A DNA stretch of 64,000 nt, taken from the IMG/VR virus record IMGVR_UViG_3300042307_001412, positions 1-64,000 of that record; one strand, given 5' to 3'. Shown here in pieces: positions 9,612 to 53,765 of this stretch. Each line of letters starts with the position of its first letter. Within the stretch, counting starts at the first letter, position 1. The notes beneath the pieces were generated by a model. That model ran no database searches. It was not told the origin of the DNA and saw only the letters and a program-made list of their open reading frames with translations. The stretch comes from a virus. The position numbers were made by a program, and so were the translations under genes.

Positions 9612-10235
9612 ATGACAACGATTATCGGAATACAGGGAGATGGTTTCGCATTTGCATGCGTCGACTCCCAGATTTCTGATGTTGATGACAATGGGTACGC
9701 AACGCAGATAGCCACTCTCAGAGAGTCTTCATCAAAACTCAGCTACAACGGCAGGTACTTGCTTGGAGCCGCAGGGGATGTAAGAGCGATAAACATTCTC
9801 CACCATGCCTTCAACCCTCCAGTTTGTCCACCGACTTTAAAGGGAAAGAAGCTCGACCACTTCGTTACAGTTAAATTTATCCCAGCCTTAAGGGAATGTT
9901 TTGAAACCCACGGGTACAACTCGCCACAGAACGAGAATTCCGAGCATGTTGCTGAACACGGTTCAGTCATTTTCATGGCTATCAATGGCGTGATATACGT
10001 AATCGACGGAGACTACTCATGGATGTCGGATATGAATGGAGTCTATGCAATTGGGACTGGCGCGCAATATGCGCTAGGGGCGCTGCATGTCCTGATGCCA
10101 AAGACCAAGATGACTATGGCTGTCGCCAAGAAGATTGGAATCAAAGCCATAGTGACTGCCGCCAGGTTTGACCCATATACCGGCGCGCCGTACCACTCAT
10201 TTACGACTGGGACCGAGAAGAAGCCAAGACCTTAG
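9612..10235 (+). CDS. Proteasome/HslV-like Ntn hydrolase
   Basis: 207 residues. The N-terminus MTTIIGIQGDGFAFACVDSQIS matches the proteasome beta-subunit pattern: Thr2 would become the nucleophile after Met removal, and Asp18 falls at the classical Asp17 position. Lys42 may be the general base, and GDVRAIN and GTGAQYALGAL resemble later beta-fold motifs (SGS/GxG). No prosegment is present, as in HslV. It could be a phage protease or another Ntn-family amidase. Its 3' end overlaps the convergent HNH gene by 35 nt. Confidence 0.7.
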   Translation: MTTIIGIQGDGFAFACVDSQISDVDDNGYATQIATLRESSSKLSYNGRYLLGAAGDVRAINILHHAFNPPVCPPTLKGKKLDHFVTVKFIPALRECFETHGYNSPQNENSEHVAEHGSVIFMAINGVIYVIDGDYSWMSDMNGVYAIGTGAQYALGALHVLMPKTKMTMAVAKKIGIKAIVTAARFDPYTGAPYHSFTTGTEKKPRP

Positions 10236-11124: not shown

Positions 11125-11457
11125 ATGCCCAAACAAAAAAAGGTAAATAAAACTACCCAACCAACAGAATTACCGTATATCCAAAGATTCGGTTGGTTTG
11201 AACTAGCAGCCTGTAAGAATAAGACCGCACTTATGTTTCCCAAAGAACATAAGGATATTACTTATATTGCCCAGGCTAGGGCTATCTGTAAAGGCTGTCC
11301 AGTGAAGAATCAGTGTTTGGAGTATGCACTAGAGTTCCCACCGGCAGATATGCATGGTGTATGGGCTGGACTCACTAGTAGACAACTAGCAGCAGAGCAA
11401 AGACGCAGGGGAGTAAAGCCAACAAGGCCGACCCTTGCACAGATGTGGGGAAGCTAA
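11125..11457 (+). CDS. WhiB-family Fe-S regulator
   Basis: 110 residues with Cys30, Cys55-x2-Cys58 and Cys64, the four ligands of a WhiB [4Fe-4S] cluster, followed by GVWAG and a basic tail. WhiB proteins bind the host principal sigma factor and tune transcription. One of three in this window. It precedes a 29-codon zinc-binding ORF by TAATG overlap. Confidence 0.92.
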   Translation: MPKQKKVNKTTQPTELPYIQRFGWFELAACKNKTALMFPKEHKDITYIAQARAICKGCPVKNQCLEYALEFPPADMHGVWAGLTSRQLAAEQRRRGVKPTRPTLAQMWGS

Positions 11458-14901: not shown

Positions 14902-15525
14902 CTACTCAGCGGCCGGCGCCAGGGGAAGTAAAAACCAATTTCTTTCCCACATAATGCCGATTGACGCGTAACCGATGACATCGATGAAGTTATCCACCAC
15001 CGATTCGTTTTCTGGGTTGGTTTCGTTCTGGAGGAGGTTCTCGAGTCGCGCAACTTTGTCATGCATTCTCACGAGTAGACCGGCGCGTCCGAATCGAGCA
15101 ATGTTATGGTGCCCGTAATCGCGCTGCTTTCTAACCAAAATCTTCGAAATATCTTCTACGTGGCCGGCAAGCTCTTCGTCGATTTCTTTAAAAATTTCTT
15201 TCTTTTCTGCAACAACGGCGGCCGTCCGCCCAAGGATTGCCCAGTACTCAGCCGCCACATCTCCAGAAATATTCTTTTTTGACTCTGGTCCAATCTCGTC
15301 AATCAGGTAATCGAGATACTCCCTGACGTCTGACAGCCGGTCCCACGTGTTGAAAGAATGATTAAAAATCTGAAAAACTGCACGGCGTGCCGCGTCGTCC
15401 CAGGTAGTGGGCGGCTTCTTTTTACCGTAGACCCAGTCGACCATTTTGACCAGGTCAAGCTGACCATCAGTCATGGTTTCCACCACCGTCGAATTAATAG
15501 GGACATCGAACTTCGTTTGTTGCAT
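14902..15525 (-). CDS. DUF1599 (Nmad1) nucleotide-modification-associated protein
   Basis: 207 residues from ATG 15525, chosen because it overlaps the upstream stop (TAATG) with AAGGAC before it. The C-terminal half holds the DUF1599 pattern: KQRDYGHHNIARFG, MHDKVARLENLL and ENESVVDNFIDVIGYA. This family is associated by genome context with DNA base modification; its activity is not established here. Confidence 0.7.
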   Translation of the reverse strand: MQQTKFDVPINSTVVETMTDGQLDLVKMVDWVYGKKKPPTTWDDAARRAVFQIFNHSFNTWDRLSDVREYLDYLIDEIGPESKKNISGDVAAEYWAILGRTAAVVAEKKEIFKEIDEELAGHVEDISKILVRKQRDYGHHNIARFGRAGLLVRMHDKVARLENLLQNETNPENESVVDNFIDVIGYASIGIMWERNWFLLPLAPAAE

Positions 15526-15965
15526 TACAGGTCCTTCCATGTGGGTGGGTGTGCTTCACACTCTAGCGTAATTTTGTCATTCAGCAACTCCAGGAACTCA
15601 ATCCATGCATCATCGCGCAGCCCCGCTTCTAGTTCCTCGATGTAATCTATTTGAGCTTGGATGTACTCCTTGGAAAAAGCAGCGAGTATTACGTTTGGAT
15701 TCGAGCACGGAAACAACACCGGTCCATTCACATTGCCGATTGATGACTCTGGCACGTGGATTGCTTTGATGGCATAATGACCATCAGTCGCGACGAACAT
15801 AACGTTGTGTTCCCGCTGTTCAGTTTCTTTAAGTTCCTCGAGCATGGCTGCGGCTACATCATCATTTATTCCGGACGCCGCGAGCGCTGCAGTTAACTCT
15901 TCTTTTCTTTCGAATGGGACCGATTTCTCGAAGTCATCAAATGGATTTTTCAATTGCACCTCCAT
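15525..15965 (-). CDS. Hypothetical protein
   Basis: 146 residues, mostly alpha/beta with many acidic residues; no motif recognised. There is no Shine-Dalgarno before ATG 15965, but a TTAACA/TACAAT promoter ends only 11 nt upstream, so translation is probably near-leaderless. Confidence 0.6.
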   Translation of the reverse strand: MEVQLKNPFDDFEKSVPFERKEELTAALAASGINDDVAAAMLEELKETEQREHNVMFVATDGHYAIKAIHVPESSIGNVNGPVLFPCSNPNVILAAFSKEYIQAQIDYIEELEAGLRDDAWIEFLELLNDKITLECEAHPPTWKDL

Positions 15966-17465: not shown

Positions 17466-17516
17466 GACTGCTCCTTGTTAGTAGTTGTTAGTAATTCTAT
17501 ATCGAATTTAGTGAAT

Positions 17517-17554
17517 CCCCCCAGCGTTGAAAGGAGGGTAAGGACGCTGAGGGG
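17517..17554 (-). terminator. Stem-loop after the VWA gene
   Basis: CCCCCCAGCGT and ACGCTGAGGGG form a long stem between 17465 and 17620; downstream T-run is weak. Confidence 0.5.
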
Positions 17555-17581
17555 ATTACACCTGCGCTGATTAAAGCGCAT

Positions 17582-17611
17582 GCCGTGGAGCGCAAGTCCG
17601 CACCCCACGGC
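17582..17611 (-). terminator. First stem-loop after the VWA gene
   Basis: GCCGTGG pairs with CCACGGC, 8 nt past the stop at 17620. With the next hairpin it makes a double terminator. Confidence 0.5.
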
Positions 17612-17619
17612 ACACCTCG

Positions 17620-19152
17620 TTAGATAAGTTCAGTTCCGTTCAGTTCCTTGTATGTTCGCTTAAACATTTCAGGATAGATACTCACTGCCTTATCGCCAGC
17701 CTTTAGTTTTTTCAGTTGGTCAATCGCTTCGTCAACATGAGGCACAACAACGATGTTGTTTTTCTTGCAGAAGTTAATGCACTGCATAGCAAGCACTGCT
17801 TCATAGTTGCCACCCGCACCGCACACTCCACCGTCAGTTACCCAAATAATTGGTGACTTAGAAGTTTGCTTCTGCTTCACGCCCCACTCAATCGCAGGGA
17901 AGTCAACTCCGTTGCCGTATCCAACGCTCGGAAGTTCATTAACCATTTTGCCTTTATGAGAAACAACCCAAAGGTTCGTTATGTTTGGGTCACCTTTATC
18001 GGTGTACACAGCCACAGTTGCACCCGGAGCATGCTCAATGATTCTCGTAAGTTGTTCTCTGCTGAATGACATTGAACCACTTCCGTCAATGATTACAACT
18101 CCACCAGTGCCACGAATTACCTTGTCAAAGATTCTCATCTGTGGGTCGGTAATCATTCGGTGCATTCGGCGTGGACGCATTCCCATATTGGAAGCAACAC
18201 GTTTCTTGCCCAAGTTGCCTTTTGACAACACTGGCATTGGCAGAAACTCAATGTTCAGTTTTTGCCATGAAGCAACTCGGTATGTCGCATTGGAACTGGT
18301 GATTCCCTTGTATGGGTTTCCGTCCTCTTTGCCTTGGTCAGTTGGCTTGATTCCCTTGTTGGAGTGTTTGCCACTACCTTCACTGGTTTCGTCACCTTCC
18401 TCGCCCTCTGATTCCTCACCGTCTTGACCAAGAGCCTTGCGGAGTTTTGCTTCCTCACGCTCTCTGCGAGCCTTTTCTTTTTCCTCTGCTATCTGCTCGG
18501 GTGACTTTGCGCAAAGACGGTCAACCCATTCAGCCAGTCGTTCTGTGTGAACGAATCCCAAAGGGAATAGACCGCTAGTTGGGTCAACTTTTGTGGAAGC
18601 AAGGTTTGAATACTTGTCAGCCTTTTTCATTTCCTTGACTGCTCGCTTGGAGATATCAAGAAGTATCGCACCCCACTCTCGCTTGTGTCTGCGGATTCCG
18701 TTTAGCAATAGTTTGTTGGACGCAGTGCCAGCAGTAGCAACTGCCATTTGCACAGCACCAGCCCAATCCTCTGTCGCACCAAGTCGTTCACCGTCAGCCG
18801 TTTCTCCACCGTCTGCAAGGTCGTTCTTAACATCAAAGCCAGCCTTTTGGCAAAGATAGTTAACACGCAATTCCTCAACCACAGTCATTGATTCTTGGGT
18901 TGCAATCTTGCGTTCAATCCATTTCGACCAATCATCAGCAGGCGATACTTTTGCGTGAACCATTTCATGCGCACGAATTGCCCGAGCGAGTGAATCATCA
19001 TCAGTAGGAACTTTCATTTCCCTTGTAACGATGTTGGTGCAAGGTTCGCCACGAATTGCACGAACCTCGCCCACCGTCCACACGCCACCTTCCACATCGT
19101 TGCGTGAAAGAAACTCGGGTTCAGCCGAGATACGTTTTTTCACAGTTTTCAT
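17620..19152 (-). CDS. VWA-domain protein with HExxH metallopeptidase-like N-terminus
   Basis: 510 residues. The N-terminal domain carries HEMVH (His62-Glu63-His66) and a downstream VVEELR (Glu93/94) able to supply a third zinc ligand. The middle is helical and highly charged (about 215-280). The C-terminal VWA domain has the MIDAS DGSGS (356-360), then VTDGG. The order fits the DUF2201 putative-metallopeptidase/VWA-like family. Start codon overlaps the AAA+ gene stop (ATGA), so it works with that MoxR-type ATPase. Such pairs remodel or mature protein complexes; the target is unknown. Confidence 0.8.
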   Translation of the reverse strand: MKTVKKRISAEPEFLSRNDVEGGVWTVGEVRAIRGEPCTNIVTREMKVPTDDDSLARAIRAHEMVHAKVSPADDWSKWIERKIATQESMTVVEELRVNYLCQKAGFDVKNDLADGGETADGERLGATEDWAGAVQMAVATAGTASNKLLLNGIRRHKREWGAILLDISKRAVKEMKKADKYSNLASTKVDPTSGLFPLGFVHTERLAEWVDRLCAKSPEQIAEEKEKARREREEAKLRKALGQDGEESEGEEGDETSEGSGKHSNKGIKPTDQGKEDGNPYKGITSSNATYRVASWQKLNIEFLPMPVLSKGNLGKKRVASNMGMRPRRMHRMITDPQMRIFDKVIRGTGGVVIIDGSGSMSFSREQLTRIIEHAPGATVAVYTDKGDPNITNLWVVSHKGKMVNELPSVGYGNGVDFPAIEWGVKQKQTSKSPIIWVTDGGVCGAGGNYEAVLAMQCINFCKKNNIVVVPHVDEAIDQLKKLKAGDKAVSIYPEMFKRTYKELNGTELI

Positions 19153-19874
19153 CGTGCCAACTTCTCAATCGCAATAGCGTCAAGAATTGACTGCGCCCTG
19201 TCACCGAATGTCAACTGGCTTGCTCGCTCGTCACCAAGACCCTTGCGGAGACTGTCGTAAGCGATGAATGCTCGCAGTGAGATACGGCGTTCGCCAGCGT
19301 CAGCCATACGAACTGCGAACTGGCGCAATTCAGGTGAGAGACGAAGCAAAGCGTCAGGGTGTGGTTCGTTGATACGAATCTTGATAGGGAATCGGTCAGT
19401 GAGAGCAGTTGGCAATTCGCCCATGTTCTCAACATTGGTGGTCATAATTGCAGAGAAGCCTGCTTTTGGACGGTGGACACGGGCAGTGTCAGGGTGTTCA
19501 AACGAAGCCGATTCAGGTGAATCCAACATCGCCAAGAGCGTTGCATAAACATCGCCCGAAGCCTTGTCAATTTCGTCCACGATGAGACGACCACCTTTAA
19601 TGCCGTTGCCTTCCCAAGCCTTTAAAGCCGACCCGTCAAGCCACTTAGTGCCACCCTTACCGTCAGGTAGGAATGTTCCAGTAACATCCATATTGGTCAT
19701 GTCCTCGGTGCATACCAATCGGAATGCGCCTGCTTCAACATCGCCGATAGTCATACCAGCGTATGTCTTGCCGATACCCGAAGGTCCGAAAAGGATTACT
19801 CGGTCAACACCGTTGTTGAGAGCGTCCTCTAGGTCTTGCCAGCACTGTGGCAATTTGGTTTGTGTAGTAGTCAT
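19149..19874 (-). CDS. MoxR/CbbQ-type AAA+ ATPase
   Basis: 241 residues. Walker A GPSGIGKT (30-37), Walker B LIVDEID (97-103), sensor-1 MTTN (144-147) and an arginine near TDRFPIKI. Compact MoxR-clade ATPase without extra domains. Served by two tandem GATATC promoters and a TTAAGGAGGG ribosome site. Partner of the VWA protein. Confidence 0.88.
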   Translation of the reverse strand: MTTTQTKLPQCWQDLEDALNNGVDRVILFGPSGIGKTYAGMTIGDVEAGAFRLVCTEDMTNMDVTGTFLPDGKGGTKWLDGSALKAWEGNGIKGGRLIVDEIDKASGDVYATLLAMLDSPESASFEHPDTARVHRPKAGFSAIMTTNVENMGELPTALTDRFPIKIRINEPHPDALLRLSPELRQFAVRMADAGERRISLRAFIAYDSLRKGLGDERASQLTFGDRAQSILDAIAIEKLAR

Positions 19875-19914
19875 TTCTGTTTCCCTCCTTAAGGGTGTTT
19901 GGTTAGTTGTAGTT

Positions 19915-19944
19915 ACCTTACAGCAGGCGATATCAGATTTACAA
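19915..19944 (-). promoter_or_regulatory. GATATC promoter, proximal copy for the AAA+/VWA operon
   Basis: TTGTAA, 18-bp spacer with ATCTGATATC, TAAGGT. Lies 41 nt before ATG 19874. Confidence 0.75.
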
Positions 19945-19972: not shown

Positions 19973-20002
19973 ACCCTAGGGCATGCGATATCAGATTTAC
20001 AA
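19973..20002 (-). promoter_or_regulatory. GATATC promoter, distal tandem copy
   Basis: TTGTAA, ATCTGATATC spacer (18 bp), TAGGGT. The only tandem pair; 58 bp upstream of the proximal copy. Confidence 0.7.
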
Positions 20003-20158: not shown

Positions 20159-20341
20159 TTAGTTACAACCGCAACAGGCAGAGCAGAAAACTACTTCGCC
20201 ATGTTCACCGCAGTCAGCGCGGCGCGACTCACAAATAATGCAATTTTCTGCAGACATGGCAGCCTGCGCACGACGCTCCGCCTTTTTCTCTCCACGGTTC
20301 TTGCCTATCTTGTAGACAACATAACCACCGAGTAGACCCAC
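20159..20341 (-). CDS. Small membrane protein with Cys-rich tail
   Basis: 60 residues, GTG start overlapping the upstream stop (TAGTG). Short glycine-rich hydrophobic N-terminus, basic segment, then CIICESRRADC and CSACCGC, a probable zinc site. Unknown. Confidence 0.6.
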   Translation of the reverse strand: MGLLGGYVVYKIGKNRGEKKAERRAQAAMSAENCIICESRRADCGEHGEVVFCSACCGCN

Positions 20342-20847
20342 TAGATACCAGCCTGTCTGTCAGCCTTAGCGTCCCTGACTTCCCAAAGACCTTTCTTGAC
20401 CTTACGGAAGGTTGGACTCTCTTGGACGTATTTCAGAGTGGTCGGGTAGGAGAAGCCACACTGCTCCATAAGTTGCTCTGTGGTGAACTGCTCAAAATGG
20501 TGCTGGTTCGCCCACTTCAGGAACGAGTCCCACTTGTCAGCCCGCTTCTCGGTCTTGACCTCATCTACGACAGACTCCTCATCTACCTGAATACCGCAGT
20601 ACTCACTAGATACCTCTGCGATTACAGCGTCAGGAAGCGAATAGGAGAGCATGGCACGGATAGGACTGCCCTTTGCTCCGTCACGATTCCACACTTGGAG
20701 AACATGTAATGCCCTTGTGTAGTCACTGATACCTTGGGCGACTTCCCGTGGCACGGCGAACTTATCCCCGAACTCGTCAATGGCTTCAGCCCAACGAGAG
20801 GTGTGGATATCGGTAATGGTTGATTCGGTTATTGACTTTTTCAACAT
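20341..20847 (-). CDS. Putative winged-helix DNA-binding protein
   Basis: 168 residues. The C-terminal HFEQFTTEQLMEQCGFSYPTTLKYVQ..FRKVKKGLWEV reads as a winged helix with a final wing. GAAAGGAAG ribosome site. First gene of a two-gene cassette under the 20872 promoter. Confidence 0.6.
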   Translation of the reverse strand: MLKKSITESTITDIHTSRWAEAIDEFGDKFAVPREVAQGISDYTRALHVLQVWNRDGAKGSPIRAMLSYSLPDAVIAEVSSEYCGIQVDEESVVDEVKTEKRADKWDSFLKWANQHHFEQFTTEQLMEQCGFSYPTTLKYVQESPTFRKVKKGLWEVRDAKADRQAGI

Positions 20848-51824: not shown

Positions 51825-53258
51825 CTACATGCAGATATTTATAGTGGAATGTAACGAATTCCACTTTTTGATGTCTTCCACATCGTTTAGTAACGGCTGA
51901 CCCTTTATATTTAGGCTTGTATTGAGAAGAACTGGAATGCCTGAGTATTTCTTCCATTTTTTTAGCAGCTCGTATAAACCAGGATGCTGTTCCTTGTTGA
52001 CGGTTTGAACCCGTGATGTTCCGTCCTTATGGACAACCGATGGGATTAGCTCTGGTTTCTTGCATTTAAATGCGTACTGCATATACGGGCTTGGCTGACT
52101 CATTTCAAACCACTCCGATGCATGTTCCTCCATAATCACGGGGGCAAACGGGCGAAACAGTTCCCTTTCTTTTACGGTATTAACCAAGTCTTTGCACGAA
52201 GGGTCTCTTGGGTCGGCAAGAATGCTCCTGTTTCCTAGCGCACGTGGGCCATACTCGGCTCTTCCATTTGCGACTGCCGCAATCTTGTTGTTCACAAGCT
52301 GACTGAATATTGAATCAACCGGGTATTCTCCGGGGACTGTTTCCCCAAGATAGGGGCTCTTCCAATCAAGGTGTTTGCCGTATATTGCGGCCGCCGCACC
52401 AAGACTGCTTCCGGCATCACCTGGATTTGGCATTATCCATACCTGATTGTAGATATCGAATAATTTCGTATTTGCCGAGCAGTTGAGTGCGCACCCACCC
52501 ATGAATACCAAATTCTCTTTGCCTGTTTTTTTCTTTGCGAAGACCATGAATTCAATTAGTCTTTTTTCGTAGACGGCCTGAACGGCTGCTGCGATATGAA
52601 ATTTATTCTGCTCTGTAGGAACTACAGAGAATCCCCCAACCCCGTAATGGAATATTTCTGTCTGCTCTTCGATTGTTGGGAATAACTCATTGATTTCAGA
52701 GAAGTAAATCTCGGGGTCCCCATATGCGGCCATTCCCATCATTATGTACTCTTCTTCATTGGGTTTTAGTCCTATGTATTCAGTAAAGGCCGAGTAGAAC
52801 AGGCCGAAGCTAAATGGGTAATTTCTGGAGTAAACCTTTTTAATTGTTTTTCCATTCCCCGACCAGATACTGGTTGTTTCAAATTCCCCAATGGCATCAA
52901 GAACGACAATCACGGCATCTTCAAACGGGCTTGTGTAATACCCGGCACAAGCATGGGAGTAATGGTGTTTAAAGTTGGTAATTTTCGAGTCGGGGAAGTA
53001 TTTTTTTACAGCAGAATAAGAAGAACCGTAGCCACCAAACAGATTCATTCGCAATTTCTTTAGCCGTGGCTTTTCGTAGTATCCGATTGCGTCTGGCTTG
53101 CCGTACTTAAACGCCTCTTTTACTATCTCGTCGTTTAAGTGCCAATCATTTTTTATTTTGCTATATCTCTCAGAGTGTGAAGCAAAAAGAATCTCACCAT
53201 TCTCGATAACGGAAATTGATGCATCGTGAGAGCAGGCGTTCACGCCAAATATAATCAC
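51825..53258 (-). CDS. Carbamoyltransferase (NodU/TobZ family)
   Basis: 477 residues. Kae1-like N-domain: His11-Asp12, KHHYSHA (97-103), FMGGCALNC; C-domain: GRAEYGPRALGNRSILADPR, NTSLNIKGQP. Transfers carbamoyl from carbamoyl phosphate to hydroxyls of sugars (or nucleosides). At 477 aa it is somewhat shorter than the usual 530-600, with the end after NIKGQP curtailed, perhaps natural. Overlaps the 53255 gene by ATGA. Confidence 0.88.
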   Translation of the reverse strand: MIIFGVNACSHDASISVIENGEILFASHSERYSKIKNDWHLNDEIVKEAFKYGKPDAIGYYEKPRLKKLRMNLFGGYGSSYSAVKKYFPDSKITNFKHHYSHACAGYYTSPFEDAVIVVLDAIGEFETTSIWSGNGKTIKKVYSRNYPFSFGLFYSAFTEYIGLKPNEEEYIMMGMAAYGDPEIYFSEINELFPTIEEQTEIFHYGVGGFSVVPTEQNKFHIAAAVQAVYEKRLIEFMVFAKKKTGKENLVFMGGCALNCSANTKLFDIYNQVWIMPNPGDAGSSLGAAAAIYGKHLDWKSPYLGETVPGEYPVDSIFSQLVNNKIAAVANGRAEYGPRALGNRSILADPRDPSCKDLVNTVKERELFRPFAPVIMEEHASEWFEMSQPSPYMQYAFKCKKPELIPSVVHKDGTSRVQTVNKEQHPGLYELLKKWKKYSGIPVLLNTSLNIKGQPLLNDVEDIKKWNSLHSTINICM

Positions 53259-53665: not shown

Positions 53666-53692
53666 TTCTTCTCCTTTTTTGATTTATCCTAG

Positions 53693-53765
<73 letters not shown>

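Follow-up and report, generated by a model that had tools for sequence, protein, structure and literature searches.

An AAA+/VWA operon of a probable actinophage with a conserved HExxH signature and a 3' loop complementary to its own Shine-Dalgarno sequence

We analysed the first 64,000 nucleotides (nt) of IMG/VR virus record IMGVR_UViG_3300042307_001412 (the window), a part of this 91,133-bp record, and describe in it a minus-strand operon that encodes an AAA+ ATPase and a protein in which an N-terminal HExxH domain is joined to a von Willebrand factor A (VWA) domain. The reading that we favour, at somewhat better than even confidence, is that the operon produces a NorQ/NorD-like remodeller which bears a probably active metallopeptidase and is under RNA feedback. 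It is built on the invariance of the HExxH signature and of the ATPase motifs among relatives, and on a hairpin loop 3' of the operon that covaries with the Shine-Dalgarno sequence of the AAA+ gene. The features are collected in Table 1.

Table 1. Features of the AAA+/VWA operon, in window coordinates (residue numbers are those of the VWA protein)
Feature	Position	Strand	Evidence
Distal phage promoter element, 58 bp further upstream	19973..20000	-	Exact match to regulon element
Proximal phage promoter element	19915..19942	-	Exact match to regulon element
Shine-Dalgarno AAGGAGGG of the AAA+ gene	19883..19890	-	Sequence; complementary to 3' loop
AAA+ ATPase, 241 amino acids (AAA_5; NorQ/CbbQ/Midasin-like)	19149..19874	-	Pfam, PDB matches, invariant motifs
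VWA protein with N-terminal HExxH domain, 510 amino acids	17620..19152	-	AlphaFold2 model, VWA fold
HEMVH, residues 62-66, within helix 54-69	18955..18969	-	HExxH in 84/84 alignment rows and 58/58 phage reading frames
EELRVN, residues 93-98, with E94 as putative third zinc ligand	18859..18876	-	Conservation; predicted helix 86-103
Interdomain linker, about residues 219-295	18268..18498	-	Low model confidence at 246-276
DGSGS, loop 1 of the metal ion-dependent adhesion site (MIDAS), residues 356-360	18073..18087	-	D356, S358, S360 in 84/84 rows
GNGVD, residues 413-417; valine in place of the expected MIDAS threonine	17902..17916	-	Alignment A3
D440, MIDAS loop 3 aspartate	17833..17835	-	84/84 rows
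3' RNA element: hairpins 17580-17613, 17564-17579 and 17510-17562	17510..17613	-	Fold z -7.1
Loop CCCTCCTT, complementary to the AAA+ Shine-Dalgarno	17531..17538	-	Exact complement; covariation over 59 phage loci

Operon architecture and the AAA+ ATPase

An earlier note on this DNA had marked positions 17620-19874 as a MoxR ATPase with a VWA partner, and this interval is precisely that of two minus-strand open reading frames (ORFs), the AAA+ gene and then the VWA gene, overlapping by 4 nt. The pairing was confirmed in the ATPase scan, which retained the 80 top-ranking loci out of 115 confirmed ones: the VWA gene directly follows the AAA+ gene, in the same order, in 80/80 loci.

The assignment to MoxR stood in part. 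The ATPase has a complete AAA+ core, with the key residues of Walker A, Walker B, sensor 1, the arginine finger and sensor 2 invariant in 37/37 homologues, and its residues 60-90 have the right place and length for a helix-2 insert, as judged from sequence only. It scored above the cut-off for PF07728 (AAA_5; 48.4 bits, cut-off 22) and below that for Pfam AAA_3, which we take to be the MoxR-type model (22.3 bits, cut-off 27), while its closest solved chains in the PDB were those of Midasin (E 1.5e-12), NorQ (E 5.1e-5) and CbbQ (E 3.3e-4). By these comparisons the protein is MoxR-clade-like, not a close MoxR. Among 50,697 phage records two Microbacterium phages matched it, over 59% and at ∼31% identity.

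The N-terminal domain of the VWA protein

The HExxH...E signature, of gluzincin type, is conserved in the VWA protein family. This was established with an 84-row alignment of VWA proteins (A3) made up of 38 phage rows and 46 rows from genome contigs, the latter chosen from the 69 cellular or contig loci of the pair found in a genome scan by leaving out 23 partial or near-identical ones. H62, E63, H66, E94, R96 and N98 are invariant in 84/84 rows, and residue 93 is E in 81 and D in three; the invariant set includes the His and Glu residues of the HEMVH motif and the downstream glutamate pointed out in the earlier note. Similarly, HExxH...ExRxN is present in 58/58 distinct phage ORFs of at least 450 amino acids (aa) from loci L001-L115, which had been located with patterns placed elsewhere than the HExxH motif. 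The genome scan used a pattern that includes HE[ML][MV]H, so the presence of HExxH in the cellular rows is partly by construction. Among 20,000 shuffles of the VWA protein, HExxH arose in 1.1%, and HExxH together with E...[ND] 18-40 residues further on in 0.18%. The gene is under purifying selection, as its ratio of nonsynonymous to synonymous substitution rates (dN/dS) is ∼0.12-0.20 against six relatives.

AlphaFold2, supplied with the 84-row alignment, modelled the whole protein with a predicted local distance difference test score (pLDDT) of 87.7, and the N-domain on its own with a pLDDT of 93.9. In the N-domain model, strands lead into helix 54-69, which carries HEMVH, followed by helices 75-80 and 86-103, the last of which carries EELRVN. 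Strands, an HExxH helix and a glutamate helix, in that order, are found in gluzincins, a group of metallopeptidases that includes collagenase, M1, M48 and selecase, and the predicted topology fits a gluzincin-like one. The motif E-x-x-x-N also resembles the E-x-x-x-D of thermolysin. The modelled domain differs from gluzincins in its extra helices, and no significant structural match to them was obtained. We consider the N-domain to be probably an active metallopeptidase.

The VWA domain, the MIDAS and the linker

Residues 347-488 have the VWA fold, as seen in comparisons with 1sht (Z 9.0, root-mean-square deviation (rmsd) 2.8, 126 residues) and with the NorD chain 9qhd_G (Z 7.6, rmsd 3.6, 135 residues). 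The linker that joins the two domains is 56-81 residues long in the 38 phage rows and 23-27 residues long in 42/46 genome-contig rows; in the four remaining genome-contig rows (L195, L196, L197 and L202) it has 54-80 residues, and in the tree these rows fall together with the phages.

Two properties of the VWA protein weigh against our favoured reading. The first is that the structural matches of the N-domain are all weak (Z of 3.9 or less), with Bcl-xL-like bundles on top; zinc peptidases, which by name or general knowledge we take to be collagenases, BlaR1, M1 enzymes, selecase and one putative Zn peptidase, account for nine of the 50 N-domain matches listed, all with Z of 3.4 or less. The second concerns the MIDAS. 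The position of its threonine is V in 82, C in one and I in one of the 84 rows, in a profile alignment that is uncertain by one residue there, and the alignment has no conserved Thr or Ser at residues 413-420. The spacing from V416 to D440 (24 residues) equals that from T341 to D365 in rows of the DUF2201 family. Passages of a study of NorD (PMC9976466) report that the substitution T534V keeps NorQ binding and abolishes client activation. By analogy, the VWA family would naturally have the MIDAS type that disables NorD, and client capture at that face may differ; the MIDAS face could be put to another use, since valine replaces threonine here and T534V disables NorD.

A 3' RNA element complementary to the AAA+ Shine-Dalgarno sequence

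Directly 3' of the VWA stop codon the RNA is predicted to form two long hairpins separated by a short one, and the loop CCCTCCTT is exactly complementary to the AAA+ Shine-Dalgarno AAGGAGGG, which lies ∼2.3 kb upstream. These hairpins, which the earlier note had missed, bear on its suggestion of finely tuned expression. A strong fold 3' of the operon is found in the window and 13 relatives (z -4.6 to -9.2), and weak ones in several phages e.g. L030 (-34 kcal/mol), L046 (-40.5 kcal/mol) and L047 (-41.7 kcal/mol). Within the helices, two-sided changes occur in 7/39 pairs (six close relatives), and no Rfam family matched the element.

We compared each Shine-Dalgarno with the 3' region of its own operon in 59 phage loci, i.e. 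those left, some of them still related, when loci with near-identical 3' regions or without a findable start had been dropped. The longest perfect complement averaged 7.83 nt, as against 5.91 nt when the pairs were permuted (0/20,000 permutations as high), and a complement of at least 8 nt was found in 39/59 own pairs, 309/3422 swapped pairs and 29/1180 shuffled ones. There are 25 different loop/Shine-Dalgarno sequences over the phage loci, and the pair is rewritten to e.g. AAGGAGTAAG/CTTACTCCTT in L015 and AAGGAGAAAG/CTTTCTCCTT in L056. Swaps between nearest relatives made the complement worse in 38/47 pairs, left it equal in six and improved it in three, although a sign test on these counts overstates the effect as the pairs share members. 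The complementary stretch is mostly unpaired in the predicted fold in 39 of the 46 loci with at least 7 nt; in L168 it lies in a stem, away from the Shine-Dalgarno core. In 25/59 loci no other same-strand 150-nt region of the locus does as well as the 3' element. The complementarity of the 3' loop is specific to its own Shine-Dalgarno and covaries with it. A general rule, by which the 3' region of every gene fits its own Shine-Dalgarno, was rejected, as the 116 heuristically called window genes averaged 5.23 nt against 5.40 nt permuted.

It could be argued that the loop is of a generic kind, an anti-Shine-Dalgarno-like sequence or a terminator, and that it matches the AAA+ Shine-Dalgarno only by coincidence. 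Shine-Dalgarno sequences share a common core and strong hairpins are frequent in this phage: 10/1704 of its sampled windows reach -60 kcal/mol, so a strong fold is not unique to the 3' element. In addition, another gene's Shine-Dalgarno matches the 3' region equally well or better in 41/59 loci, and the complement is 6 nt or less in 13/59 loci and 7 nt in seven, partly perhaps because of mis-set starts. However, own pairs beat swaps between phages as well as between nearest relatives; the Shine-Dalgarnos of other genes average 5.64 nt rather than 7.83 nt, with no neighbouring gene position standing out; the AAA+ Shine-Dalgarno is strictly the best in 18/59 loci where 4.5 would be expected; and 48 cellular operons gave no such effect. 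We therefore regard an incidental match as unlikely and retain RNA feedback.

The nearest published parallel that we cite is the icaR mRNA of Staphylococcus aureus, whose 3' untranslated region is described in the abstract of PMC3868564 as complementary to the Shine-Dalgarno of its own transcript. The window operon shares this arrangement. It differs in that the pairing would span a two-gene phage operon over ∼2.3 kb, would use the loop of a hairpin and shows covariation in 25 different sequences. If the 3' element is co-transcribed with the operon, the pairing would most likely lower AAA+ translation, by analogy with icaR.

Tandem phage promoters

The regulon element GTAAATCTGATATC-N8-TAnnnT, with up to two mismatches allowed, has 31 matches in the record, 28 of them on the minus strand, and these span only 16589-47165 (16.6-47.2 kb); the reversed pattern has 0 matches in the same 91,133 bp. 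Two copies precede the AAA+ gene, in agreement with the earlier note's description of two tandem regulon promoters, and this pair alone, of the four most closely spaced same-strand pairs (those inspected), has no ORF of at least 20 aa between the copies. In a scan of 64 upstream regions (up to four mismatches), L002 (identical to the window), L006, L007, L008 and L011 each had two copies at a distance of 58-59 bp, L010 had one copy and L013 three; in the others copies were absent, or isolated and weaker. As a separate observation, relatives show drift in the long conserved promoter block upstream of the TAnnnT box, which reads GGAAATCTGGTATC in the L006 record, as might be the case if the factor that recognises it had co-evolved.

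Relation to known families and systems

The VWA protein had no Pfam or NCBIfam model under E 0.1, and when all 84 members were compared with Pfam the best of the matches listed was VWA_CoxE (E 0.008, in six members). Residues 271-486 match phrog_33218, a PHROG without assigned function (E 1.7e-43). A tblastn search of the 50,697 phage records returned no match at E up to 10, sequence searches of the PDB gave nothing useful, and Foldseek gave no PDB match at E 0.001 for either the full model or the N-domain model; against viral models its best match was an unnamed 451-aa protein (E 4e-26). Among the open-licence papers listed, none was, judged by title, on the VWA family or its 3' element.

The architecture itself is already in print. 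Passages of a survey of jumbo phages (PMC7824862) describe a MoxR/VWA pair in which a metallopeptidase is fused to the N-terminus of the VWA protein, and for which a role in virion assembly was proposed. We located this pair in phage Atu_ph07 (ASV44728/ASV44729), where the VWA protein is a DUF2201 member with HQILH. DUF2201 proteins are like those of the window family in that an N-terminal metallopeptidase-like domain is fused to a VWA domain and a [DE]xxxN helix follows the His motif, and in Atu_ph07 an AAA+ gene adjoins. They differ in having D-x-x-x-N rather than ExRxN and GGGTD rather than GNGVD, and the window family keeps HExxH, including its glutamate, where ASV44728 has HQILH. As the Atu_ph07 protein is a DUF2201 member with HQILH, and the Atu_ph07 and window pairs have no meaningful BLASTP similarity, the window VWA family is, by sequence, a separate one. 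DUF2201 (PF13203/PF09967) was rejected as a family for the window protein, which had no match to it at E up to 10; nor was it among the 25 of 33 families listed for the 84 members, or found in the six genomes or records carrying the VWA family (0/6). A profile comparison with DUF2201 supported only the VWA part (probability 78, against 0.8 for the N-part). Independently of this, the replacement of HExxH by HQILH in ASV44728 (L290:4254-5543) means that the published "metallopeptidase" domain of that protein may be inactive.

The pair is like NorQ/NorD in combining an AAA+ protein with a two-domain VWA partner that has a flexible linker, and NorQ and NorD are both among the PDB matches. Unlike NorQ/NorD, it has the HExxH N-domain and valine for the MIDAS threonine, and no nitric oxide reductase context was seen around it.

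Gene neighbourhood and cellular relatives

In the phages, the conserved neighbours of the pair (38 loci) are the minus-strand genes at 20341-20847 (32 loci), 15525-15965 (29 loci) and 14902-15540 (25 loci); they encode a 168-aa and a 146-aa protein, neither of which matches Pfam, and a protein of DUF1599 ("nucleotide modification associated"). No structural family was found among the tested phage neighbours, most of which have no known function. The window also encodes a WhiB transcription factor (11125-11454, plus strand; PF02467, E 8.5e-15), which we take as a sign of an actinobacterial host, and the virus is therefore probably an actinophage. Elsewhere in the same phage there are a proteasome/HslV-like N-terminal nucleophile hydrolase (9612-10232, plus strand; PF00227, E 1.6e-5; phrog_1040 "peptidase HslV family", E 1.6e-21) and a tRNA-Met (cat) gene (53692-53765, minus strand) that adjoins a Nol-like carbamoyltransferase gene (51825-53258, minus strand; phrog_1601, E 7.8e-110).

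The family also occurs in cells. A profile search found it in 9/148 genomes of the class to which the L255 genome belongs, two of the nine having been known beforehand. In the tree, each of two cellular groups forms a single clade (support 100), and the phages together with four phage-like contigs make up one side of a branch (support 99). Around 44 chromosomal-type loci the neighbours, named from one representative each, are dinB (40), a PIG-L deacetylase gene (33), a LysM-like gene whose match is below the Pfam cut-off (30), nrdR (30) and lexA (22); in the second cellular group a ∼410-aa protein follows the pair in three listed loci (L201, L204 and L206). Control of the cellular AAA+ gene by SOS boxes was considered and rejected. 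An exact palindrome was counted upstream in 13/64 loci, a count that includes L210 (invalid, with a mis-set search interval) and L224 (a short-spacer match inside the AAA+ gene); ten of the other 11 loci contain lexA, the eleventh (L232) being outside that neighbour set, and we therefore ascribe the boxes to lexA rather than to the AAA+ gene.

These neighbourhoods bear on what the pair may do. If it helped virion assembly, with the peptidase processing structural proteins, it would act as proposed for the pair of like architecture in jumbo phages. That pair, however, has HQxxH and belongs to the distinct DUF2201 family, the window family is present on bacterial chromosomes without evident virion genes nearby, and the tested phage neighbours point to no structural function, so we hold a virion role to be improbable. 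Rather less improbable, if still doubtful, is a pure maturation chaperone, in which the N-domain would bind metal or client without proteolysis and the pair would serve e.g. to insert metal into, or to activate, an enzyme of the phage or its host such as ribonucleotide reductase. NorQ/NorD is described in published work as inserting iron without proteolysis, the DUF2201 relative in Atu_ph07 has been retained despite HQxxH, and ribonucleotide reductase is encoded in 13/15 phage records, as well as nrdR being a frequent cellular neighbour. On the other side, the catalytic-type glutamate E63 is invariant, ribonucleotide reductase is common in phages of such size, and that of this record lies at 64.2-65.0 kb, outside the promoter class.

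A conflict module directed against host defence or competing phages seems to us very improbable. MoxR-vWA conflict systems do exist, as described in parts of PMC7159879, and at the cellular locus L201 a NERD-helicase gene and a further VWA gene adjoin the pair; but of the proteins run against PADLOC, three VWA proteins had no match and two ATPases had only weak matches (E at or above 0.0013), and no third component of such systems was seen.

Proposed mechanism and implications

We propose that the operon encodes a remodelling machine powered by ATP, of the same type as NorQ/NorD and CbbQ/CbbO. In this proposal the AAA+ protein would form a ring on which the VWA domain docks, ATP turnover would pull or twist the flexible linker, and a client would be seized between the VWA domain and the N-domain and cut by the latter. 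The mechanism is drawn by analogy with NorQD, for which passages of PMC13036017 describe a VWA finger that enters the ring and propose that ATP turnover stretches the linker to the N-domain. The HExxH domain, at the far end of the lever, would most likely be a zinc metallopeptidase, cutting or at the very least clamping a single intracellular client. This client would be expected to be non-structural, acting in host takeover or nucleic-acid metabolism, rather than a part of the virion, because no structural gene was recognised among the tested neighbours and the promoter class is limited to 16.6-47.2 kb. Expression would be set by the two tandem promoters and most likely by feedback, with the 3' hairpin loop pairing with the AAA+ ribosome-binding site of the same mRNA, as in icaR. 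A bolder form of the proposal, which we put forward only tentatively, has an AAA+ motor with an active zinc protease on its co-chaperone lever, in which twisting presents the client, and a 3' loop, made once transcription of the operon is complete, that blocks the ribosome-binding site of the motor gene.

Although AAA+/VWA machines occur widely, clients are known for only a few of them. A variant with an apparently intact protease motif, conserved in phages and near chromosomal nrdR, dinB and often lexA, offers a well-defined starting point for finding one. The mode of control in icaR is termed a singular example in the abstract of the paper describing it (PMC3868564); the covarying loop/Shine-Dalgarno pairing would be a natural experiment for icaR-like control across a whole family. 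If the proposal is true, one small operon joins protein remodelling, protein cutting and RNA feedback.

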